DNA of 64,000 nucleotides, from contig NZ_CP109150.1 in assembly GCF_035920365.1 (NCBI RefSeq), positions 5,084,001-5,148,000 on the forward strand, written 5' to 3'. This stretch comes from Micromonospora sp. NBC_01740. GTDB lineage: Bacteria > Actinomycetota > Actinomycetes > Mycobacteriales > Micromonosporaceae. The notes below the pieces were generated by a model. The model was not told the origin of the DNA. It made no database searches and saw nothing but the letters and a program-made list of their open reading frames with translations. The position numbers and the translations under genes were made by a program. Position 1 is the first letter of the stretch. Every line of letters starts with the position of its first letter. Below are positions 29,816 through 56,873 of this stretch, one piece after another.

Positions 29816-30475
29816 ATGCGCGTCGTCATCGCCGGAGGACACGGCAAGATCGCCCAGCTGACCCACCGCGAACTCGCCGGACGCGGCGACACCGCCATCG
29901 GGCTGATCCGCAACCCCGACCACTCCGCCGCCCTGCGTGCCGCCGGCGCCCAGCCCGTCGTGGCCGACCTCGAACACGTCGGCGCCGACGAGCTCGCCGC
30001 CCACCTCGAGGGCGCCGACGCCGTCCTCTTCGCCGCCGGCGCCGGCCCCGGCAGCGGCGCCGCCCGCAAGGACACCGTCGACCGGGCAGGCGCCGTCCTG
30101 CTCGCCGACGCCGCGCAACGCGCCGACGTCCGCCGCTACCTGCTGCTGTCCTCGATGGGAGTGGAAGGCGAACCACCCGCCGGCACCGACGAGGTGTTCG
30201 CGGCGTACCTGCGCGCCAAGAAGGCCGCCGAGGACGACCTGACCGGCCGCGACCTCGACTGGACGATCCTGCGACCCGGCCGGCTCACCGACGACGCGCC
30301 CACCGGGCGGATCACCCTCACCCGACACGCCCCCGCGGGCGCCGTGACCCGCACCGACGTCGCCCGGGTCCTCGTCGCCCTGCTCCACCACCCACACAGC
30401 GCCGGCGCGATCCTGGAACTCGTCGGCGGCAACACCCCCATCGCCGACGCCGTCGCCGCCGTCGACCAGCACTGA
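29816..30475 (+). CDS. NAD(P)-binding atypical short-chain dehydrogenase (SDR, NmrA/YwnB-like)
   Basis: This 219-residue protein has an N-terminal Rossmann motif MRVVIAGGHGKIAQLTHREL, a family-typical GxxGxxG-like loop. VLFAAGAGPGSGAARKDTVDRAGAV and YLLLSSMGVE follow, with AYLRAKKAAEDDLTGRDLDWTILRPGRLTDDAP near the active-site side. It resembles the sugar-epimerase-like SDR subgroup that binds NADP and often acts as redox sensor or reductase. The usual YxxxK is replaced by YLRAKK. Its substrate is unknown. It is convergent with the NO synthase operon. Confidence 0.85.
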   Translation: MRVVIAGGHGKIAQLTHRELAGRGDTAIGLIRNPDHSAALRAAGAQPVVADLEHVGADELAAHLEGADAVLFAAGAGPGSGAARKDTVDRAGAVLLADAAQRADVRRYLLLSSMGVEGEPPAGTDEVFAAYLRAKKAAEDDLTGRDLDWTILRPGRLTDDAPTGRITLTRHAPAGAVTRTDVARVLVALLHHPHSAGAILELVGGNTPIADAVAAVDQH

Positions 30476-30491
30476 CCCGCCGTCCGGCGGG
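30476..30491. terminator. Short GC hairpin between convergent genes
   Basis: CCCGCC (30476-30481) and GGCGGG (30486-30491) with loop GTCC lie directly after the SDR stop, facing the end of the NO synthase operon at 30504. Confidence 0.5.
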
Positions 30492-30503
30492 CAGGCGACG
30501 CCG

Positions 30504-31133
30504 CTACTCGCCGAGCACGGCACGCAGCTGCGCGCCGACCGCCCCGGCCGCCTCCGCGTCGGAGCGCAACTGCTCCGACTGCTCCGACAGGTACGCCTGC
30601 CACCGGCTCAGGTGCTGCTGCGCCGCCGCCACCGCCGCCACCAACGCCGCCTGCCGGCCCTCCAGCTCCCGCACCTGCCGCCGCAACTCCTCGCCCTCCG
30701 CCCCCGCCGGGCCGGCGACACCCCCGGCCAGCACGTGCGCCTCGGCGATGATCTCGTCGGCCTGCCGCCGCGCCTCCGCGATGATCTCCGCGCCCTCCGC
30801 GCTGGCCTCACCGATCGTCCGGTTCGCCTCGTCCTGCGCCCGCACCGCCAACTCGATCACCATCGGATCCGGGCCCTGCGCGCCGGTGCTGGGCAACGCG
30901 CCGTGGCGCAACATCTCCACCTGCCGCGCCAGGCCCTCGTTCTCCCGCCGTAACCGGTCCACCTCACCACCCAGCAACGCCGACCGCTCGTCGGCCGACC
31001 GGGCCAGGCCCGACACCTCGTCGGCGGACAGCCACCGGCCACCCCGGAACCGGCGCGCCTCCAACGCGCCCACGGCCCGGGTCAGCTCACCGTGCGCATC
31101 GGCGACCACCCGGTCGCCGTGGTCGACGCTCAT
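30504..31133 (-). CDS. DivIVA-like coiled-coil protein in the NO synthase operon
   Basis: This 209-residue protein starts MSVDHGDRVVADAHGELTRAV. The segment ARRFRGGRWLSADEVSGLARSADERSALLGGEVDRLRREN (its core FRGGRWLSADEV) recalls the N-terminal crossing segment of DivIVA-type proteins. It is followed by coiled coil about 45-75, then EANRTIGEASAEGAEIIAEA with heptads to about 140, and another coiled coil 155-195. There is no membrane helix. The ATG overlaps the TGA of the flavohemoglobin-like gene (ATGA, 31130-31133), so it is translationally coupled to the heme genes. A scaffold or localisation role for the NO-making enzymes is possible but only inferred. Confidence 0.75.
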   Translation of the reverse strand: MSVDHGDRVVADAHGELTRAVGALEARRFRGGRWLSADEVSGLARSADERSALLGGEVDRLRRENEGLARQVEMLRHGALPSTGAQGPDPMVIELAVRAQDEANRTIGEASAEGAEIIAEARRQADEIIAEAHVLAGGVAGPAGAEGEELRRQVRELEGRQAALVAAVAAAQQHLSRWQAYLSEQSEQLRSDAEAAGAVGAQLRAVLGE

Positions 31134-32350
31134 CGCACACCCGTCCAACTGAAGTCGTCCGGCGCGGCGGCGGCAGCGCCCGCCAGCGGCGGATACAGGC
31201 AATGGTCGTAACTCTCCACCAGGATCCGCTCCCGCGGCACCCCCGACGCCGTCAACGCGGCAACCGTCGCCCCGGTCATCTCCGGACTGCCGCACACCAG
31301 CACCTCGGTGTCGTGCCACGGACCCAACCGCACCGCGGTCTCACCGGCCGTGCCCACCGCCCCCTGCCACTGCCAGCCGGACTCCACCGTCGGCACGTAC
31401 CGCAGCCACCCGGACTGCCACGACTGCGCCGACGCGGCCGCCGCCAACTCCCGCAACGCCACGTCGTCGTACAGGTCGTCCGGGGTCCGTCCCCCCACCA
31501 CCAACGTCGTCGAGCGCCCCGGACCCAGCCGCAACGCCTCCACCACCGCCCGCAGCGGCGCCACCCCGGTGCCCCCCGCCACCAGCAGCAACGGCAGGCC
31601 CGGCGACCGGTCGTACGACGACAACGCCGTCCCCACCGGCGCGCCCAGCAGCACCCGGTCACCCTCCCGCAGCCTGCGCACCAGATGCGTGGAGAACCGG
31701 CCCGCCGCCCGCACGTGGAACTCGATCGTCCCGTCCGGACGCGGCGCGTTCGCCGGCGACAGATACCGCCACGTCCGCAGCTGCGGCACCTGCATTGGCA
31801 GCGACTGCCCCGGCAGGTACTCACACAGGTAGTTCGGACGGACCGTGAACACACACACGTCGGCCCGCCGCCGCTGCACCGCCAGGACCTCCGCCTCCCA
31901 GTACGGCGGCGACGTCCGCTCCGCCTCCACCGCCCCGGCCAGCATCAACCGCGCCACCAACTCGTACGCCGCGGCCCACTCGGCGTGCAGCTGCGGCGTC
32001 CACCGTGGACCCAGGAACCGCTCCAACGTCGCCAGCAACGCCTGCCCGACCCGGATGTAGTGCCACTCCGCCAACGGCACCGGCCGGCCCTGCCGGTCCT
32101 CGCCCTGGAACCGCCGGTGATCGGCGCCCAACCGCTGCGCGAACGCCGTCACCTCCCGCTCGTCGTCGACATGGGTGACGATGTGCCCCAACGCCGCCAG
32201 CAACTTGTCCTGCTGGTACTGCATGTTCGTCGGGAACATCGCACGCGTCTCCGGCGCGATCAGGAACAACGTCGCGTAGAAGTACTTCGCCGCCTCCGGC
32301 CCGGCCACCGACAGCTGGGCCCAACTCTGACGCAGCGCCACCACGTCCAT
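31130..32350 (-). CDS. Flavohemoglobin-like protein (globin + FAD/NAD reductase)
   Basis: This 406-residue protein has a globin domain at residues about 1-135 (YFYATLFLIAPETRAMFPTN at the B-C helices with a distal Tyr; GADHRRF with the probable proximal His). A ferredoxin-reductase-type module follows: RTWRYLSPAN as FAD site, LLLVAGGTGVAPLRAVVEAL as NAD site, and LVCGSPEMTGATV near the C terminus. Flavohemoglobins convert NO and O2 to nitrate at the expense of NAD(P)H. Here the gene starts 3 bases after the NO synthase stop, so it may detoxify the product or deliver electrons to the synthase, which lacks a reductase domain. The variant RYLSP instead of RxYSL suggests a divergent flavin site. 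Confidence 0.88.
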   Translation of the reverse strand: MDVVALRQSWAQLSVAGPEAAKYFYATLFLIAPETRAMFPTNMQYQQDKLLAALGHIVTHVDDEREVTAFAQRLGADHRRFQGEDRQGRPVPLAEWHYIRVGQALLATLERFLGPRWTPQLHAEWAAAYELVARLMLAGAVEAERTSPPYWEAEVLAVQRRRADVCVFTVRPNYLCEYLPGQSLPMQVPQLRTWRYLSPANAPRPDGTIEFHVRAAGRFSTHLVRRLREGDRVLLGAPVGTALSSYDRSPGLPLLLVAGGTGVAPLRAVVEALRLGPGRSTTLVVGGRTPDDLYDDVALRELAAAASAQSWQSGWLRYVPTVESGWQWQGAVGTAGETAVRLGPWHDTEVLVCGSPEMTGATVAALTASGVPRERILVESYDHCLYPPLAGAAAAAPDDFSWTGVR

Positions 32351-32353
32351 GCC

Positions 32354-33577
32354 TCAGCCCTCCCGCCGACGGGCCACGTCGTGCCGCTGCCGCAGGGACA
32401 GCGCCTCGACGCCCGCCGGACCGTACGCACGATCGGTCTGCCACAGGTTCGGGTTCGGCACCCGGGTGTCGTAGTACCGGTGGTGCACCGCGTGCAACGC
32501 CGCCCACCCCACACTGCCGTTGAGCCACGACCAGTCGCCGTGCACCGGCCGGCCCGCCCGCTCCTCCTGCGCGCAGAACCGCATGAACAGCTCCGACTCC
32601 GTGTGCGGATCCGACACCCGCACCCCCGCCGCACGGAACGAGTGCAGCACCGCCTGGTTGATGACCAGAGCCGCGTGCTCCCGCCACAGGGTGTCCTCCC
32701 GCGAGGTGTCCAACCCCAACCCCCGCGCCACCGGCAGCAACTGGTCGTACCGGTCCCCGTCACCCATGTTCCGGGTGCCGACCTCGTCGCCCAGGTAGTG
32801 CCCGTTGAACGGGGCGCAGCTGTAGTCCACCCCACCCACCCGCAACCGCATGTTGCTGATCACCGGCAGCGCGTGCCAGCGCAACCTCAACTCCTCGAAC
32901 CACGGATACGCCGGATGCGTCAGGGCGACCTCACGCACGAGCTCCCGCGGCACCTCCACCAACGTCGGATCCTCGTACGCCGTCTCGAGCACCCACGGCA
33001 GCAGATCGAACCGGCCCGGCACCGGCGGCGGATGCCAGCCCAGCGCCCGCACCGCGTCCGTCATCGCCACCTGCGCCGGATCACCCAGGATCGACCCGTC
33101 GTCCATCCGGTGTCCGCAGTAGCGGATCAGCTGGTCGTTCCAGAGCCGCGCCCGCGGACCCACCCCCGGCCGGTCCGGCGCGAACACCGTCATCACCGAC
33201 TGGATCCGCCCGCCGTTGTCCGCCACCGCCAGATGCCGCGCCAACTCCTCCGCGATGCCCGCGACCGTCGTCACCCCACGGCGGTCGCGGACCCTCAACC
33301 CCGCCCACCGGACCCGCCCCACGCAGCGCGCCGACTGCCGCCACGCCACCTTCGCGCCGTGCACCAACTCATCGCCGGTGTGCCGGTACGTGCCGGTCAC
33401 CGCGATCTCCTCCCGTACCCGCGCGACCCGGTCCGCCACCCCCGGCAGCCGTCGCTCCTCGTGGTACAGGTGCAGGAACTCCACCGCTTCCGCGGTCACG
33501 TCCACCGGCGAGTCGGACGCGTGCGACACGGGACAGCCGCCCGCGTCCCCGGCCCGCACGCCGACGCGCGCCGACAT
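32354..33577 (-). CDS. nos: Bacterial nitric oxide synthase, oxygenase domain
   Basis: This protein of about 407 residues has the NOS fold markers: AWRQSARCVGR with the heme-ligating Cys85, then FELRLRW-like block (WFEELRLRWHALPVISNM), GGVDYSCAPFNGHYLGDEVGTRN with the arginine-binding Glu265, and DRYDQLLPVARGLGLD. It oxidises L-arginine to citrulline and NO with a pterin and external electrons. The C-terminal region after DWSW reads LNGSVGWAALHAVHHRYYD where most NOS have a PPxSGS and FHQEM motif, so it is a diverged member. ATG 33577 is taken; GTG 33667 would add 30 residues. It is the first gene of a three-gene operon with flavohemoglobin and a coiled-coil protein. Confidence 0.9.
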   Translation of the reverse strand: MSARVGVRAGDAGGCPVSHASDSPVDVTAEAVEFLHLYHEERRLPGVADRVARVREEIAVTGTYRHTGDELVHGAKVAWRQSARCVGRVRWAGLRVRDRRGVTTVAGIAEELARHLAVADNGGRIQSVMTVFAPDRPGVGPRARLWNDQLIRYCGHRMDDGSILGDPAQVAMTDAVRALGWHPPPVPGRFDLLPWVLETAYEDPTLVEVPRELVREVALTHPAYPWFEELRLRWHALPVISNMRLRVGGVDYSCAPFNGHYLGDEVGTRNMGDGDRYDQLLPVARGLGLDTSREDTLWREHAALVINQAVLHSFRAAGVRVSDPHTESELFMRFCAQEERAGRPVHGDWSWLNGSVGWAALHAVHHRYYDTRVPNPNLWQTDRAYGPAGVEALSLRQRHDVARRREG

Positions 33578-33980
33578 CGCGCCGGCATCCACGTCGGTCT
33601 GCACTTCGCACTCAATCCGATCGTCGGGCAAGCGTCGCCGCCCGCTGCCTGCGTCGTCGCGTGACACCGGCCCGCAACTGCCCGTACCCCGACGGAACAG
33701 CGACCCACGTGCGAAACAGGCGCAACGACGCAGACAGGATTGCCATGATCGTCAGAAGTGTCAACAAGCCGACAGGTCAGGACGTGGCGCACGCCACACC
33801 GCCGCAGGCCCCCACGCCACCAGCCGATCGGACGGTTCGGTCGTGGACGACGATTACCGGGCAGCGCTGGTGACGCGAACCAACGACGTGCAGCGAACCC
33901 GGCCCGGCCCGGGCGGATCAGCCCGAGCGACCCCAGCGAACCCGGAGTGCGCGGGGCGGATCAGCCGAGCCGCCGGCCCC
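33578..33980. other. Intergenic region upstream of the NO synthase operon
   Basis: About 400 bases hold the operon promoter. On the minus strand a TTGACA lies at 33764-33759, but no convincing -10 box follows at 16-18 bases (AATCCT is the best). On the plus strand a 42-codon frame (33745-33873) has an AGGA 6 bases before its ATG but weak codon bias. Nothing else recognisable is present. Confidence 0.4.
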
Positions 33981-34565
33981 TCAGCCGGCCCGGCGCCGCG
34001 CCCGACGCGCCGCCAACTCGTCACCCACCGGCTCCGCCGCCACCTGCGGCTCCACCGACGTCGCCGGCTCAGACGGCAGGTGCGACAGGGAACCCTGGAT
34101 CTCCTTGAACGCCCCACCGATCGCGATACCGAACACGCCCTGGCCACCCTGCAACAGGTCGACCACCTCCTCCGGCGACCGGCACTCATACACGGTCGTG
34201 CCATCGGAGATCAACGTGATGCCCGCCAGGTCCGCCACCCCACGGGAACGCAGCGCCTCGATCGCCTTCCGGATGTTCTGCAACGACACCCCGGCGTCCA
34301 GCAGCCGCTTCACCACCTTCAGGACCACCAGGTCCCGGAACGAATACAACCGCTGGGTGCCCGAACCCGAAGCGTCACGCACACTCGGCACCACCAACCC
34401 GGTGCGGGCCCAGTAGTCCAACTGCCGGTAGCTGATCCCCACCGCATGGCAGGCCGTCACGCCCCGGTAGCCCACGGCACCGTCACCCTCGGTCGCCCAC
34501 CCCGGCGGCGCCACACCCGGCTCGTCCAGCTCCGTACCCGGATCGGGATCTCGCGGCTCGTGCAT
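33981..34565 (-). CDS. MerR family regulator (Rv1830-type)
   Basis: This 194-residue protein has a MerR helix-turn-helix (YRGVTACHAVGISYRQLDYWARTGLVVPSVRDASGSGTQRLYSFRDL; the core ISYRQLDYWARTGLV is diagnostic) at residues about 30-75. The C-terminal part LLQGGQGVFGIAIGGAFKEI is the conserved segment of the Rv1830 group. ATG 34565 has GGGGAGG 8 bases upstream. In mycobacteria this gene ends the gcvH-garA-Rv1828-Rv1829-Rv1830 cluster; the order is the same here. Members of this group are linked to growth and cell-cycle gene control; the ligand is unknown. Confidence 0.92.
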   Translation of the reverse strand: MHEPRDPDPGTELDEPGVAPPGWATEGDGAVGYRGVTACHAVGISYRQLDYWARTGLVVPSVRDASGSGTQRLYSFRDLVVLKVVKRLLDAGVSLQNIRKAIEALRSRGVADLAGITLISDGTTVYECRSPEEVVDLLQGGQGVFGIAIGGAFKEIQGSLSHLPSEPATSVEPQVAAEPVGDELAARRARRRAG

Positions 34566-47796: not shown

Positions 47797-49560
47797 TCAG
47801 GACCGGGCCGTCACCACGACCCGCGCGTCGTCGGGCAGCCGGCGGGTGGCGCCGCGACGGTCCAGCAGCTCCAGCAGCGGCACCGCGACCCGGCGGGTGG
47901 TGTCCAGCGCCCGCCGCGCGGCGCTGAGCGTGAACGGCTGGGGCAGCCCGGCCAGCACCCGCACGGCGTCGTCGGCCGCGCCGGGCAGCAGCACCACGTT
48001 CTCGGCGAGGCGCAGCAGCGCCCCCGCGCGTACGGCCGCGCCGATCTCCCGGGGACCCAGCCCCAGGTCGGCGAGGTGCTCGACCTCGGGGGCGCGGAAC
48101 GGGCGGTCGGCGTACTCGGCGCGGACCCGGGCCACGGCCCGGGCCACCGGTTCCGGCAGCGCGTCGACCGCCGACGCGGTGACCCGGCCGGCGCGCAGCC
48201 GCAGCGGCGGCCGGACCAGCGCCTCGACCAGCGCCCGCTCGGGCAGGTCCAGGCGCTGGCGCAGCAGCTCGACCGGCGCGCCCGCCTCCAGCGGGTGCTC
48301 CCGGGCGTGCCGGGCGACCTCCTCGACCAGCCGGGTGCCGAGGCCCCGCCAGTGCTCCGGGTCGGCCAGCCAGTCGCCGGCGACCGGCCGGCCGGTGGCC
48401 TCGACGCCCATGCGGATCAGGTCGGCGGCCCGGGCCAGCCGCCGCCGGCGCAGCTCGCCGGCCAGCTCGGGGCGGCCGTCCACCGTCGCCAGCACCGCCG
48501 CGCGGGCGACGGCCGCGCCCCGACGGGTCAGCGGCGGCGGAGCCACGTCCAGCACGGTCACCCCGCCCGCGACGTGGTGCCGGCCCGGGTCGCGCAGCAG
48601 CGCCCGGTCCCCGACCAGCAGCGGCAGCGGCCGGGCCAGCCGCAGCCGGGCCGTGTCCGGGCCGAGCGGCCGGACCCGGGCCGGCACCGCCGCCGCGCCG
48701 ATGTGCAGGGTCAGGGTGGCCGGCAGCTCCCCGGCCGGGTCGCCGGCCAGCCGCACGTCCAGCAGGTCCGTGCGGTGGAACCGGCCGGGGGTGAGCAGCG
48801 CGTCGCCGCGCCCCAGGCGGTCCCGGGGCGTGCCGCGCAGGTTCACCGCCACCCGGGCGACCGGGGCGACCTCGGGCCGGGCCACGCCGAGGGAGTGCAG
48901 GCCGCGTACCCGCACCGTCTCCGCGCTGCCGGCCAGCTCCAACTCGTCGCCCACCCGGAGCCGACCGGCGCCGAGCGTGCCGGTCACCACCGTGCCGGCG
49001 CCGCGGACGGTGAAGGCGCGGTCCACCCACAGCCGCACCGGGGCGTCGGCCCGCGGGGCGGGCAGCCGGGCGGCGAGCCGGTCCAGCGCCGCGCGCAGCT
49101 GCGGCAGCCCGGCGCCGGTCACCGCGCTCACCGCCACCGCGTCCACCGCGCCGAGGGAGGTGGCGGCCAGCTCCGCCCGGGCCCGGGTCGTCGCCGGCCC
49201 CGGATCCGCCAGGTCCGCGCGGGTCACCACCAGCAGGCCGTACGCCACCCCGAGCGCGTCCAGTGCCGCCAGGTGCTCGGCCGACTGCGGCATCCAGCCC
49301 TCGTCGGCGGCGACGACGACCAGCGCGGCGGGCACCGGGCCGACGCCGGCGAGCATGTTCGGCACGAACCGCTCGTGCCCCGGCACGTCGACGAACGCCA
49401 CCGTCGCGCCCGAGGGCAGGGTGCTCCAGGCGAAGCCGAGGTCGATGGTCATGCCCCGGCGGCGTTCCTCGGCCCACCGGTCGGGTTCCATCCCGGTCAG
49501 CGCCCGGACCAGTGTCGACTTGCCGTGGTCGACGTGCCCGGCGGTGGCCACCACGAACAC
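47797..49560 (-). CDS. selB: Selenocysteine-specific elongation factor SelB
   Basis: This 587-residue protein starts VFVVATAGHVDHGKSTLVRAL. G-domain motifs: GHVDHGKS (G1), GMTIDLGFAW (G2), DVPGHERF (G3) and TRADLAD in place of the usual NKxD/TKxD (G4). EF-Tu-like domains II/III follow, then four winged-helix domains at the C terminus that bind the SECIS hairpin. The length suits bacterial SelB. It brings Sec-tRNA to UGA codons in mRNAs with SECIS. GTG 49560 starts 4 bases after the selA stop, consistent with an operon. Confidence 0.95.
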   Translation of the reverse strand: MFVVATAGHVDHGKSTLVRALTGMEPDRWAEERRRGMTIDLGFAWSTLPSGATVAFVDVPGHERFVPNMLAGVGPVPAALVVVAADEGWMPQSAEHLAALDALGVAYGLLVVTRADLADPGPATTRARAELAATSLGAVDAVAVSAVTGAGLPQLRAALDRLAARLPAPRADAPVRLWVDRAFTVRGAGTVVTGTLGAGRLRVGDELELAGSAETVRVRGLHSLGVARPEVAPVARVAVNLRGTPRDRLGRGDALLTPGRFHRTDLLDVRLAGDPAGELPATLTLHIGAAAVPARVRPLGPDTARLRLARPLPLLVGDRALLRDPGRHHVAGGVTVLDVAPPPLTRRGAAVARAAVLATVDGRPELAGELRRRRLARAADLIRMGVEATGRPVAGDWLADPEHWRGLGTRLVEEVARHAREHPLEAGAPVELLRQRLDLPERALVEALVRPPLRLRAGRVTASAVDALPEPVARAVARVRAEYADRPFRAPEVEHLADLGLGPREIGAAVRAGALLRLAENVVLLPGAADDAVRVLAGLPQPFTLSAARRALDTTRRVAVPLLELLDRRGATRRLPDDARVVVTARS

Positions 49561-49564
49561 GCCC

Positions 49565-50869
<1,305 letters not shown>

Positions 50870-50888
50870 GATCCCCACTTCCGCAGCA

Positions 50889-50984
50889 TGGCGGAGACGG
50901 ACGGGAATCGAACCCGCCTGGCCCGGATCCCGGACCACACCGGTTTTGAAGACCGGGAGGGGCACCAGCCGCCTGAACGCCTCC
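50889..50984 (-). tRNA. selC: tRNA-Sec (anticodon UCA)
   Basis: On the minus strand this 96-base gene folds as tRNA-Sec. The acceptor stem pairs GGAGGCG with CGTCTCC, with an encoded 3' CCA. The anticodon loop CTTCAAA carries UCA for UGA codons. There is a long variable arm, and a T arm with GGTTCGATTCC. Length and long extra arm fit tRNA-Sec. It sits between the formate dehydrogenase genes and selA. Confidence 0.93.
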
Positions 50985-51029
50985 ACGCAGCAGTGAACCA
51001 CAGGCCCGGCGGGCGTGTGCGGGAGGGCG

Positions 51030-52019
51030 TCAGCCCTCGGCGGCGCGCCGCCGCTCGAGGCGCTCCCGCTGCGGCACCACCGTGTACTTCGGATCCTTCG
51101 CCGAGGCCACGCCGCCCTCGAAGATGCCGAACCGGGTCGCCACCGAGGCGCCCAGCAGCGCGACCCCGGACAGCGCGGAGAGCGTGCGGCTGCGCCGACC
51201 CAGCAACGCGCCGGCCACCCCCACGGCGGTCAGGGCCCTCCCCGCGCGCAGCAGGCGACCGGGCCGGCCGGTGCGGTAGGGCTCGCTGAGCAGCCCGAGC
51301 CGGGTCTCCACCCGGTGCGCGCCGTACAGCTCCAGGGCCGCGCCCGCCACCGCCATCCGCCGGGCGGGCCCGGCCTGCGCGCAGGGCGCGGCGATCAGCC
51401 CGACGCCGGCGCCGCTGGCCAGGGCGCTGCCCGCGAAGATGACCGGCAGTTCCGGGTACGCCTCGTGCCAGGACGGCACGGCCGTGTCGGCCAGCAGCAC
51501 CCCCGTGTACGTCGCCAGCGCCGGCGCGGTCGCCGCGGCGGCCAGCCCGGCGGCGTGCCCGACCGGCGGCAGCGCCCGGCGGACGAGCCCCGGCAGGCCG
51601 CGCCCGGGCAGCCATGCCGCGCCCTCGGCGACCGCCGCGAGCCCGGCGGCCGGGCCGAAGGCGCCGAGGATCCAGGTGCCCACGGACATGGGCGAGGTGG
51701 GCTTGGCCACCCGGAGCATGTGGTGGAACCGGGCGGGCCGCCCCAGGTCCTTGATCAGGAAGACGGTGCTGGCCGTGACCGCCGCCAGCGAGGCGACCCG
51801 GCCGGCGCGGCGCAACGCGGGCCGGCCGGTGAGCTGCCCGCCCGCCGCGAGCAGCGACGAACCGGCTGCCAGCCCGCCGGTGAACAGGTACGCGGCGATG
51901 TCCCACTTCCAGACCGGCGCCTTGAGGATCGGCCGGCCGTAGTAGGAGGTGAACTCGGCCTCCGGGACCCTCAGCTCCTCGCCGCCGCGCCGCCTGCGCC
52001 CACCGCGCTCCGGACTCAT
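51030..52019 (-). CDS. Formate dehydrogenase membrane subunit (NrfD/PsrC type)
   Basis: This 329-residue protein starts MSPERGGRRRR, then SYYGRPILKAPVWKWDIAAYLFTGGLAAGSSLLA, whose core YYGRPILKAPVW and YLFTGGLA is typical of NrfD-like subunits. It has eight to nine spans, with FLIKDLGRPARFHHMLRVAKPTSPMS in the quinone-side loop. It probably carries electrons from the iron-sulfur subunit to menaquinone. ATG 52019 overlaps the fdhB stop by four bases. Cytochrome-type FdoI is replaced by this subunit. Confidence 0.9.
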   Translation of the reverse strand: MSPERGGRRRRGGEELRVPEAEFTSYYGRPILKAPVWKWDIAAYLFTGGLAAGSSLLAAGGQLTGRPALRRAGRVASLAAVTASTVFLIKDLGRPARFHHMLRVAKPTSPMSVGTWILGAFGPAAGLAAVAEGAAWLPGRGLPGLVRRALPPVGHAAGLAAAATAPALATYTGVLLADTAVPSWHEAYPELPVIFAGSALASGAGVGLIAAPCAQAGPARRMAVAGAALELYGAHRVETRLGLLSEPYRTGRPGRLLRAGRALTAVGVAGALLGRRSRTLSALSGVALLGASVATRFGIFEGGVASAKDPKYTVVPQRERLERRRAAEG

Positions 52020-53131
52020 GAGGAACCTCCCACGAACGCGGCCACAGCCGCCGCCGCCATCGCCAGCGCGGCCAGGCCGGCGCGCTTCCACATCTTCGGC
52101 AGGTCCCGGGTGGTGACCACCGGGTCCGGCGGCAGCCCGTACACCTCGGGCTCGTCGAGCAACAGGAAGAACGCGCCGTCACCGCCGACCCCGTCGCCCG
52201 GGTCGTGCCCGTAGAGCCGCGCCTCGGGCACGCCCCGCTCGTGCAGCGTCGCCACCCGGGCCGCGGCCCGCTCCCGCAGCTCGTCGAGGGGGCCGTACTG
52301 GATGGACTCGGTCGGGCACGCCTGGGCGCAGGCCGGAGTGTTGCCCGCGCCGATCCGGTCATAGCACAGCGTGCACTTCCACGCCCGGCCGTCGCCCTTG
52401 CGCTGGTCGATGACGCCGTAGGGGCAGGCGGAGATGCAGTAGCCGCAGCCGTTGCAGATGTCCTCCTGCACCACCACCGTGCCGAACTCGGTGCGGAACA
52501 GCGAGCCGGTGGGGCAGACGTCGAGGCAGGCCGCGTGGGTGCAGTGCTTGCAGACGTCGGACATCATCAGCCAGCGGAAGTCGGTGCGCCCCTCCGCGCC
52601 CCCCGCGCGCCCCGGCGGCTGCGCCCCGGGCATCCCCAGGAACTCCGGCCCGCCGGCGGGGCCCGTGCTCGTGCCGGTGCTGGTCGCGCCGGCGTCGGTC
52701 CCCGGGCCGGCACCGGTGCCGGCGGCCATCCGCGCGGCCGCGTCCGCCGCGCCCGGCGGCACCCCCGGCTCGGTGCCGGTCGGGTTGCCGACGCCGGCGG
52801 CCACGGCCGCCGACGAGGCGCTGACCGAGCCGCCCGTCGGCGTGCCGGCGAACGGCGGGCTGCGGTGCCCCGCCGGGCGGGGCTGCTCGACGAACGCGAC
52901 GTGCCGCCACGAGTTCGCGGTCAGCGCGCCGGTGTTGTCGTACGACATGCCGAGCAGGTCCAGCCCCGAGCCGGGGACGTCGTTCCACTCCTTGCACGCC
53001 ACCTCGCACGCCTTGCAGCCGATGCAGACGCTCGTGTCGGTGAAGAAGCCCATCCGGGGCGGGGCGTCGGTCCAGCCGGCCTCCGGAGCCGGGTCCAGCG
53101 GCCCGGACAGGCTGTGCGGGTCAGGAAGCAT
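52016..53131 (-). CDS. Formate dehydrogenase iron-sulfur subunit with unusual linker
   Basis: This 371-residue protein has four CxxCxxCxxxC clusters: CIGCKACEVAC (about residue 35), CKHCTHAACLDVC, CNGCGYCISAC and CTLCYDRI. It ends in a single transmembrane helix (AALAMAAAAVAAFVG). Between the first and second clusters is a low-complexity insertion of about 90 residues rich in Gly, Ala, Pro and Thr (about 75-165), longer than in typical homologues. ATG 53131 overlaps the fdhA stop by 11 bases. It passes electrons from FdhA to the membrane subunit. Confidence 0.92.
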   Translation of the reverse strand: MLPDPHSLSGPLDPAPEAGWTDAPPRMGFFTDTSVCIGCKACEVACKEWNDVPGSGLDLLGMSYDNTGALTANSWRHVAFVEQPRPAGHRSPPFAGTPTGGSVSASSAAVAAGVGNPTGTEPGVPPGAADAAARMAAGTGAGPGTDAGATSTGTSTGPAGGPEFLGMPGAQPPGRAGGAEGRTDFRWLMMSDVCKHCTHAACLDVCPTGSLFRTEFGTVVVQEDICNGCGYCISACPYGVIDQRKGDGRAWKCTLCYDRIGAGNTPACAQACPTESIQYGPLDELRERAAARVATLHERGVPEARLYGHDPGDGVGGDGAFFLLLDEPEVYGLPPDPVVTTRDLPKMWKRAGLAALAMAAAAVAAFVGGSS

Positions 53132-56100
53132 CGCGGCCCTCCCCGGCGCCGTCGGCGTCCGGCGGGGCGAGCGCCCCCGGGGTGAGCGTCGGGGCCGGCT
53201 GGCCGGGGACGATGCCCGCCCGCCGCTGGTAGTCGGCCACCAGGTCCAGCAGGGCCGGGCCGGTGGGCCGCCGACCGGGCCGTACGTCACAGGTACCGAT
53301 CTTGCTCTCCTGGATCAGCACGTTCGGGTCCAGGGTGATCCCGAACAGGTCGTTGGCCGAGTCGCCCGTCACCAGGCCCTCGAACCCGAAGTGGTACGGC
53401 AGCCACACCTGGTGGATCACCCGGCCGTCCACGCGCAGTGGGCTGAGCCGGTCGGTGACCAGCACCTTCGCCTCGATGACCGCCCGCCCGCTGACCAGGT
53501 GCGCCCAGCCCAGGTGCGCCAGGCCCACCTCCGCGGCCAACTCCGGGGACACCTCGACGAACATCTCCGGTTGCAGCTCCGCCAGGGGCCGCACCGTACG
53601 GCTCATCCCGCCTGCCGTGTGGTGCTCGGTGAGCCGGCTGACCGTGAACACGTACGGGAAGACCTGGCTGTACTCCTGCGGCGGGCTCGGGTTCACCGAG
53701 TTCACCGGGTGCGCGTACACCTTGCGGGTGGGGTTGGCCTGCTGCCGGTAGAACGGGTTGCGCACCGGCGACTCGGCCGGCTCGTAGTGCGTCGGCAGCG
53801 GGCCGTCCAGCACGCCGCTGGGCGCGTACAGCCAGCCCTTGCCGTCGCCCTGCATGACGAACGGGTCGTCGCCGGCGATCCCCTCCGGGCCGGACGCGCC
53901 CTCCGGCGGCCGGTACGTCGGCGGCTTGGTCCGCTCGAAGTCCGGCACGTCGTAGCCGGTCCACTCCCCGGCGTCCGGGTCCCACCACACGTAGCGCTTG
54001 CGCTCGCTCCACGGCCGGCCCTGCGGGTCCGCCGAGGCCCGGTTGTAGAGGGTGCGCCGGTTCGCCGGCCACGCCCAGCCCCACTCGGCGGCCACCCAGT
54101 CCTGCTCGTGACGGGACCGGCGCCGCGCCGCCTGGTTGACGCCGTCGGCGTACACCCCGGAGTAGATCCAGCAGCCCACGGCGGTGGAACCGTCGTCGCG
54201 GGCCTCGGCGAACGCGGACAGCGGGCGGCCGGTCGCCACCTCGTACCCGTTGATCTCGCGCAGCACCGTCTCGGCGTTCGGCTCGGCGTGCGGACCGTGC
54301 GTGGGATAGTCCCAGGCCAGGTCGAGCAGCGCCCGGTCGCGCGGCAGGTCGGAGCCGGCCAGCTTCTCCCGCAGCCGACGCCCGAGGTGGTAGAAGAACC
54401 ACAGCTCGGAGCGGGCGTCGCCCGGCGGGTCGACGGCCTTCTCCCGCCACTGCAGCAGCCGCTGGGTCTGGGTGAAGGTGCCCTCCTTCTCCACGTGCGA
54501 GGCGGCCGGCAGGAAGAACACCTCCGTCTTGCACTGCTCCGGCACGATCTCGCCAGTGGCGACCTCGGGACTGTTGCGCCAGAACGTGGCGCTCTCGATC
54601 ATGAACAGGTCGCGGACCACCAGCCAGTCCAGGTTCGCCATGCCGAGGCGCTGCGCCCGGCCGTGCGCCGAGCCGACCGCCGGGTTCTGACCGAGCAGGA
54701 AGTAGCCCCGCACCTTCCCGTCGATCATGTTCAGCACCTGCTGGTACGTCCCGTGGTCGCCGGTCATCCGGGGCATGTACCCGTAGCAGAAGTCGTTCTC
54801 GGGCGTCGCCGCGTCGCCCCAGTACGCCTTGAGCAGGCTCGCCGCGTAGGCGCGGGCGTTGCCCCAGAAGCCCTTCTGGCCCGGATGGCGGATGCTGTCC
54901 ACCCACTCGTCGAAGGTGGGGTGGTCGGCGTGGTGCGGCATCGGCAGATAGCCGGGGAGCAGGTTGAACAGCGTCGGGATGTCGGTGGAGCCCTGGATGC
55001 TGGCGTGCCCGCGCAGGGCCAGGATGCCCCCGCCGGGGCGGCCCATGTTGCCCAGCAACAGCTGGATGATCGCGCCGGTACGGATGTACTGCACGCCGAC
55101 GCTGTGCTGCGTCCACCCCACCGAGTAGATCAGCACGCCGGTGCGCTCCCGGCCCGAGTTGGCCGTCCACGCCTCGGCCAACTCCAGGAACTTCTCGCGC
55201 GGGATGCCGCAGACCCGCTCCACCATCTCCGGGGTGTAGCGGGCGAAGTGCCGCCTGAGGATCTGGTAGACGCAGCGCGGGTGCTGCAACGTCTCGTCCC
55301 GCTCCACCTGCCCGCCCACGTCGGCGCCGTGCGACTCGTGGCGCAGCCCGGCGGCGGTGTCCCGCTCCTTCGCGGTGTGCCCGCTGCCGGAGTCGGACTC
55401 GTGGCCCGCGTACTGCCAGGAGTCCTGCACGTAGCTGCCCGTCTCCGGATCGAACCCCGAGAAGAAGCCGTCGCCGTCCTCGGTGTCGACGAAGCGCTCG
55501 CTGACGATCGTCGCGGCGTTGGTGTAGGCCAGCACGTACTCCCGGAAGTCCAGCCCGTTCTCCAGGATGTGGCGCACCACGCCACCGAGCAGCGCGATGT
55601 CGGAGCCCGCGCGGATCGGCAGGTACGTGTCAGCCACCGCGCTGGTGCGGGTGAACCGCGGATCGACGTGGAACACCTTGGCGCCGCGCCGCTTGGCCTC
55701 CATCACCCACTGGAAGCCCACCGGATGGGCCTCGGCCATGTTCGAGCCCTGGATGACGATGACGTCAGCGTTGGCGACGTCCTGCTGGAAGTCCGTCGCG
55801 CCGCCGCGACCGAAGCTGGCCCCCAGACCGGGGACGGTGGCGGAGTGTCAAATGCGCGCCTGGTTCTCGATCTGGAGCGCCCCCATCGCCGTGAAAAGCT
55901 TCTTGATGAGGTAATTTTCCTCGTTGTCCAGCGTCGCCCCACCCAGACTGGAGATGCCCAGCGTGCGGTTGAGCGGCCGGCCCTGCGCGTCGACGTCCTC
56001 CCAGGTCTCCGCCCGCGCGGCGAGGATCCGGTCGGCGATCATGTCGAGCGCGACGTCGAGCTCCAGATCCTCCCACTCGGTGGCGTATGGCCGCCGGTAG

Positions 56101-56417
56101 CGAACCTTCGTCTGCCGCAGGGGGCTGGTGACGAGGCTCTTGCTGGCCGACCCCTTCGGGCACAGCCGCCCCCGGGAGATCGGGCTGTCCGGGTCGCCCT
56201 CGATCTGGGTGACCGCTCCGTCGGTGACGAAGACGCGCTGGCCGCAGCCGACCGCGCAGTAGGGGCAGACCGACCGCGCCACGCTGTCGGCGGTCTCGGT
56301 GCGGGCGGTCAGCTCCGCCGAGCGGCCCGACTGCGCCGCGGCGCCCCGGCCCAACGGGTCGGTCCCGGTGAGCTGCCGGTACACCGGCCAGCCCTGGATG
56401 AAAGTCCGCAGGCCCAC
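53121..56417 (-). CDS. fdhA: Selenocysteine-containing formate dehydrogenase, alpha subunit
   Basis: One reading frame of about 1098 codons runs 56417-53121 and is interrupted by a single in-frame TGA (55848-55850) at position 190. Both halves are one protein: before the TGA, a 4Fe-4S motif (CPYCAVGCG, Cys51/54/58, Cys86) and LGGATLDNEENYLIKKL; after it HSATVPGLGASFGRGGATDFQ and the molybdopterin domains. The context NQARI-Sec-HSATV matches the Sec site of Fdn/Fdo-type enzymes, where Sec binds molybdenum. Formate is oxidised to CO2. GTG 56417 is preferred because GGGAGGGG lies about 9 bases upstream; GTG 56426 is possible. Confidence 0.93.
55819..55850 (-). promoter_or_regulatory. SECIS hairpin with selenocysteine UGA codon
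   Basis: Read on the minus strand, the UGA (55850-55848) is followed after 12 bases by GTCCCC, loop GGTCT and GGGGGC. The six-base stem includes one wobble pair. The apical GGTCT resembles the AGGUCU loop of the E. coli fdhF SECIS that SelB reads, at a similar distance from the UGA. Confidence 0.85.
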
Positions 56418-56873
56418 GCGCGACACCCCCTCCCGGCCCGTCCGACACAGCCACCATGAACATAGGCCAGGCCGTCCGGGACCGCGACCCGTGCCGCGGG
56501 ATCACCCCCCGACGGTCACCGCCCGCTTCCCACGGCGTCGCCCATGGCCGTACGCGACCGGTGTCCCGGCGGCGGTCCGCTCGATGTCGGCTGCGGGGCC
56601 GGCGAAGACAGCGCCGCCCCCGGGCCCGGAGGCTCGGGGGCGGCGCCGGTGTCGGTGTGCAGGTCGCCTCTCGGCGAGTGGCGCGACGCGGCTCCAGCCG
56701 GACGGTATTCCGCGAAGGCAATTTAGGTGAGGCCCGGGGACACTGGACACACCGACACCTCATTCAACCAGCCGACGGGCTGCGATGTTCCACCGGCGGT
56801 GGATGTGCCGCTGGCCGGCACCCCGTGTTCGGGTGCCGGCCAGCGATCCCCCTTGTGGTGGAAAGTCTGCGTG
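56418..56873. other. Intergenic region upstream of fdhA
   Basis: This holds the fdhA promoter and, at 56809-56845, the terminator of the secreted-protein gene. No convincing gene is seen. No clear sigma-factor box can be called. Confidence 0.4.
56809..56845 (-). terminator. Strong hairpin terminator after the secreted-protein gene
   Basis: Perfect 15-base arms (56809-56823 and 56831-56845) flank a 7-base loop, 29 bases past the stop of the secreted lysozyme-fold gene on the minus strand. Confidence 0.75.

Follow-up and report, generated by a model that had tools for sequence, protein, structure and literature searches.

How might a bacterial nitric oxide (NO) synthase (NOS) that consists of an oxygenase alone be served by the flavohemoglobin (FHb) and the coiled-coil protein with which it shares an operon? 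The question is raised by a stretch of 64,000 nucleotides (the window) from Micromonospora sp. NBC_01740, whose genome is 7.32 Mb in one contig. Here three genes follow one another on the minus strand: nos (32354..33604), encoding a NOS oxygenase of 416 amino acids (PF02898); fhb (31130..32350), encoding an FHb of 406 amino acids with globin, FAD and NAD domains assigned by Pfam; and divL (30504..31133), whose coiled-coil product of 209 amino acids is a diverged DivIVA-domain homologue according to an hhalign comparison of its family. Because an operon for a truncated haemoglobin (trHb), an FHb and a DivIVA-domain protein occupies the same chromosomal place in relatives and is found in four further families, the window unit is the NOS version of a wider actinomycete operon for a haem protein, an FHb and a DivIVA-domain protein. 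The preliminary description of this DNA had presented the three genes as a unit without known counterpart. The unit is indeed conserved, but the discovery of the trHb-FHb-DivIVA operon at its chromosomal place led us to reject the view of it as an isolated three-gene invention.

Among 160 genomes of the genus searched at the protein level, 43 have NOS, and in 27 of these (the window's own genome included) the protein is at least 70% identical to that of the window; these are called close NOS below. The NOS of the remaining 16 genomes is 42-52% identical or, in G144, a fragment. All 26 other close-NOS loci and 14 of the rest were fetched. A gene order that is not kept in relatives had been named in the preliminary description as a possible refutation, but the order proved to be conserved: fhb follows nos in 26 of the 26 loci (with a fragmented fhb match in L068), and divL comes next in all 24 whose contig continues, once at a distance of 1.34 kb (L085). 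This last genome has both operon forms, and the gene finder called nothing between its fhb and divL (L085, 3660-5000). In contrast to the nos-fhb-divL cassette, fhb and divL are absent at 13 of 13 fetched canonical-type NOS loci of the genus (of 16; G312, G300 and G351 were left out), and no FHb gene was found at 81 non-cassette NOS loci, which represent 76 distinct places with flanks of 1.5-6 kb. The NOS fragment of G144 lies directly beside the last 31 divL profile positions, as if the middle had been deleted. In other genera, two canonical NOS genes each have a gene for a single-domain globin as their tail-to-tail neighbour (PF00042; L017, 2635-3099, and L022, 1012-1425), and a tandem pair of NOS genes was seen at L167 (G053:C24:37185-39761).

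The three open reading frames (ORFs), the short gap and the overlap had been recognised correctly from the outset. In the window, fhb starts 3 nt past the nos stop, and the divL start overlaps the fhb stop by 4 nt, as ATGA. The nos-fhb gap is 2-5 nt in all 23 close-NOS loci measured, and in 19 of the 23 the overlap of fhb with the third gene is likewise 4 nt, the other spacings being -8, 4, 7 and 1340 nt; these measurements omit two loci at contig ends and the one with a broken fhb. The identification of the first protein as NOS also stands (412.5 bits against PF02898, NO_synthase, with a cut-off of 22.7), but its start has been moved. The nos ORF is open to 33667, the start first given; GTG 33604, codon 22 of the ORF, is preferred because it is kept across the NOS clade and because an in-frame TGA lies within the matched N-terminal stretch in 7 of the 27 close-NOS genomes. 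Upstream of nos lies a conserved promoter-like element, GTTGACA-N17-AATCCT (33736..33765, minus strand), which is present in the window and in 19 of the 22 other nos-type loci at the common place, and in none of 41 trHb-type upstream regions. The nos form thus has its own promoter-like element. A scan for generic sigma-70 promoters and terminators listed no site in 30000-34400.

The common place is the interval between merR2 and sir2/gcvP, where the window and 22 of the 26 other close-NOS loci are situated; the remaining four (L084-L087) are elsewhere. In genomes without the cassette, this interval encodes a trHb (PF01152, 66 bits), an FHb and a DivIVA-domain protein. The trHb-type FHb, at an identity of at least 75%, occurs in 116 of the 160 genomes of the genus, and a further one (G306) has a fragment of it; 27 genomes are of the nos type and 17 of neither, and G150 has both types at different places. 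At all 66 loci examined (out of the 116), the gene order beside merR2 is trHb, FHb and DivIVA protein. A second copy in G353 has no trHb (L204), and three relatives at 49-51% identity (L222-L224) all have the FHb and the DivIVA protein, two of them with trHb. Elsewhere in the family, 11 of 43 genera searched gave an FHb at least 46% identical to the operon type, and in these genera the DivIVA protein follows FHb in 11 of 11 and trHb precedes it in 9 of 11. In the class as a whole (345 genomes searched), all three genes are present at each of the 16 best loci outside the genus, which come from four other families, and an Embleya plasmid bears them as well. On the other hand, 30 of 30 fetched FHbs of the lower-scoring kind have neither a trHb nor a DivIVA neighbour within 1.5 kb. 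This survey beyond the genus identifies the FHb and the DivIVA-domain protein as the constant part of the operon and the first haem protein as the part that varies. Compared with this operon, the window unit has the same Micromonospora place, the same order and homologous second and third genes, but its first gene encodes NOS, its FHb is 44% identical and its third protein has strongly diverged.

How the two forms came to alternate can be judged from two trees. A tree built from six flanking genes at 64 loci requires 4 changes between the nos and trHb states (5 when counted per label in the group table), and well supported branches force at least 4. Consequently, the alternative operons have been exchanged more than once, or the flanking genes have recombined. 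In the FHb tree, the nos-type FHbs form one clade (SH-aLRT 100) inside the operon-type FHbs, and their nearest rows are metagenomic proteins rather than the trHb-type FHbs of the same place. Because of this separation, a change from trHb to NOS in place was rejected, and an exchange of whole operons is the better description.

The cassette FHb scores 39.4 bits for Globin, 28.2 for FAD_binding_6 and 43.3 for NAD_binding_1 in Pfam. Its residues Y25, Q46 and H78 are invariant in 15 aligned members; from alignment to Hmp, we take these to be Tyr B10, Gln E7 and His F8. The protein is accordingly predicted to be competent as a NO dioxygenase. With Hmp-type FHbs (NF009805) it shares the globin-FAD-NAD layout and the haem-pocket Tyr, Gln and His. 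Unlike them, it is encoded with NOS rather than NsrR, and its residues 83-96 span a 10-residue insertion past the presumed proximal His, which is present in all 4 cassette FHbs aligned but in none of the 24 others. Its score against the Hmp equivalog NF009805 is 73.4 bits, under the cut-off of 432. A second FHb of the host genome is Hmp-like (383 bits, also below that cut-off), with its gene divergent from that of an Rrf2-family regulator, and there is a third FHb as well. A role as sole NO scavenger of the strain was considered for the cassette FHb and dismissed because of the separate Hmp-like FHb beside the regulator gene. A second kind of actinobacterial FHb beside Hmp may have a parallel in the mycobacteria, where type II flavohemoglobins are reported to oxidise D-lactate (PMC6950321).

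The NOS protein finds its best PDB match in a B. subtilis-type NOS oxygenase (E 8e-95). When 15 members are aligned to bacterial NOS structures, the haem-ligand Cys (RC94VGR) and E274 are invariant, the latter being the Glu that binds the substrate guanidinium in NOS. At other positions the family has changed. The canonical active-site W of F-N-G-W-Y is replaced by H269 in 15 of 15 aligned members but retained at 69 of 76 distinct non-cassette NOS places (duplicates removed by hand). Thus, the cassette clade has invariant FNGHYLxDE and WSW[LI]NGSVGWAA where canonical NOS has FNGWYMGTEI and W[ST]WIVPPxS; on the pterin side, W358 and W360 are retained, while IVPPxS has become LNGSVG. In the NOS tree, the cassette clade groups with a plasmid-borne NOS, described below, and seven other Micromonospora NOS (SH-aLRT 99), and in this wider clade the otherwise-W position is occupied by H, F, S, T or V. 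At this position the seven (L092-L096, L099 and L100) carry F, S, T or V, and their pterin side reads WLNSYPMTP. Named records of the window's own NOS clade come from 13 Micromonospora and 2 Salinispora. Compared with the oxygenase-only bacterial NOS of the B. subtilis type (PDB 4d3u among others), the window protein shares the fold, the haem Cys and the substrate Glu; the canonical NOS loci checked have no adjacent dedicated reductase gene and keep W and IVPPxS intact, both of which are changed in the window. The cassette NOS is therefore non-canonical at substrate-side and pterin-side positions.

The third protein, divL, had been called DivIVA-like. As a single sequence it falls short of this name: no Pfam family is above the cut-off, PF05103 (DivIVA) is not listed, and the best NCBIfam match, DivIVA_Wag31, has an E value of 2.5e-4 and 21 bits against a cut-off of 260. 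The name comes from the profile match of the divL family to the DivIVA partners of the trHb operon, which covers most of the length, N-terminal part included (hhalign 98.5%, E 3.8e-15, columns 17-195), and to which coiled-coil bias may contribute. The partners themselves score 26.2, 41.1 and 34.8 bits against PF05103, the first being below the cut-off of 28. The match of divL to the host's own Wag31 is confined to columns 59-142 (hhalign 43.7%, E 2.4e-4). An AlphaFold2 model is mostly helical and of low confidence, with a mean pLDDT of 69.6. Strong divL matches occur in 25 of 354 family genomes, all 25 being among the 27 nos-cassette genomes, and G335 has a partial extra copy; named relatives in the protein collection belong to Micromonospora, Salinispora and one Plantactinospora, the last of which also gave an FHb match, on a contig of equal length. 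Weak divL matches were at first taken for SepIVA, an assignment that was dropped, as those inspected proved to be DivIVA partners encoded in the trHb operon. Elsewhere in a cassette-bearing genome, a remnant consists of the fhb 3' end fused to the divL 5' part (L156, 4466-5002).

A second NOS-FHb lineage is present on a plasmid of M. zamorensis (NZ_CP107937.1), where a NOS gene (product 51% identical to the window's) overlaps an FHb gene (46%) and is followed by the gene for a 172-amino-acid protein. Neither Pfam nor NCBIfam places this third protein in a family; its profile resembles that of the DivIVA partners weakly, through an RRGY...VD motif (hhalign 64.5%, E 6.3e-5). The plasmid FHb is the sole member of its tree group with known context, and the matches listed for 354 family genomes include no ortholog that is more than 55% identical to the plasmid NOS. 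Together with the trHb-FHb-DivIVA operon at the common place in relatives, this second pair speaks for FHb as the candidate reductase of the first-gene haem protein. Downstream of the plasmid pair are genes of the tryptophan 2,3-dioxygenase and aminotransferase families, perhaps a biosynthetic cluster (L304, 7388-10583).

There is a precedent for such a combination in SyNOS of Synechococcus PCC 7335. In the accounts drawn on here (PMC6104048, PMC12922734), its globin oxidises NO to nitrate, so that arginine nitrogen reaches nitrate. Parts of the same kinds are encoded together in both systems: a NOS oxygenase, a globin and an FNR-type reductase. SyNOS, in these accounts, is one fused chain of 1468 residues with a flavodoxin domain and a Ca-responsive C2 domain, whereas in the window NOS and FHb are separate chains, a DivIVA homologue is added and none of the three proteins has a flavodoxin domain. 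The arginine-to-nitrate route suggested in the preliminary description is, given SyNOS, not new; nor can it, or the formation of NO from L-arginine, be assumed here, because the active-site positions have changed. In the literature searched, no description was found of a NOS-FHb-DivIVA-homologue operon or of a trHb-FHb-DivIVA operon.

These findings can be joined in a model to which we give an even chance. In this model, the FHb would serve NOS directly, both as electron donor and as NO sink, and the DivIVA homologue would place the pair, the three acting together as one local unit. The FAD of FHb, reduced by NAD(P)H, would pass single electrons to the haem of the first gene product, NOS in the window and trHb in the usual form, and would also feed FHb's own globin, which would convert the NO made by NOS to nitrate. 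The pair would then amount to SyNOS split into two chains, minus the flavodoxin domain, with the DivIVA homologue as a coiled-coil scaffold that positions it in the cell. The role of donor is suggested by the alternation of NOS and trHb next to one kind of reductase, that of NO consumer by the FHb residues and known FHb chemistry, and the placing by homology; SyNOS, a fused NOS served by globin and FNR with nitrate as the product of NO, indicates that such a combination can work. The model is most doubtful where it has this NOS still converting L-arginine to NO and receiving its electrons from this FHb. Several observations weigh against the model. The first gene of the usual form encodes an oxygen- or NO-binding globin, which FHb and DivIVA may not serve to reduce; the NOS departs from canonical NOS at active-site positions; and the seven Micromonospora NOS of the wider clade have no adjacent FHb. 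Furthermore, the FHb has an FAD domain but lacks one for FMN, the nos-type FHbs are not the closest kin of the same-place FHbs in relatives, so that no simple one-gene swap took place, and the plasmid third gene lacks a family match and reaches no higher hhalign probability than that given above. In its most complete form, namely a two-chain self-sufficient NOS with FHb as donor (which would be the first dedicated to an oxygenase-only bacterial NOS) and NO-to-nitrate converter on a DivIVA-type scaffold, NOS having been put in the place of trHb and the alleles exchanged at one site, the proposal is possible but doubtful.

Other oxygenase-only bacterial NOS are thought to draw on general flavodoxins or ferredoxin reductases. 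If this were so here, the FHb would merely be a local NO dioxygenase, for protection or nitrate, an explanation that we hold only tentatively. The FHb does retain its NO-dioxygenase residues, canonical NOS works elsewhere without an adjacent FHb (0 of 76 places), and the reductase-free single-domain globins that lie tail to tail with two canonical NOS genes suggest NO removal rather than electron supply. However, the trHb of the usual form would then provide only extra scavenging, and a shared reductase would better explain why the genes are so tightly coupled and why the first haem protein is exchanged. The changed active site raises another prospect, that the NOS homologue is a NOS-fold oxygenase with a substrate or product other than those of the L-arginine-to-NO reaction and with FHb as its donor. 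The two motifs unlike the canonical ones that are invariant in the clade, and the varied residue at the W position throughout the wider clade, would be in keeping with this, but the haem Cys, the Glu and both pterin-side Trp are retained, and we regard it as unlikely. Finally, the three genes could be neighbours without joint function, linked only by moving as a block. The cassette is indeed mobile, as its other places in four genomes and the repeated change of alleles at the common place attest; nevertheless, given the coupled spacing, the single promoter-like element, the confinement of divL to this cassette, and a trHb operon that parallels it across families, this is very improbable.

Apart from the operon, the window contains a selenocysteine set (47797-56426), with a tRNA-Sec gene (50889-50984), selB-like and selA-like ORFs recognised by eye, and a frame resembling formate dehydrogenase alpha, in which codon 193 is an in-frame TGA.

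The cellular reductase of bacterial NOS is a long-open question. With a NOS that always has one FHb encoded alongside it, the question can be tested directly within a single genus.

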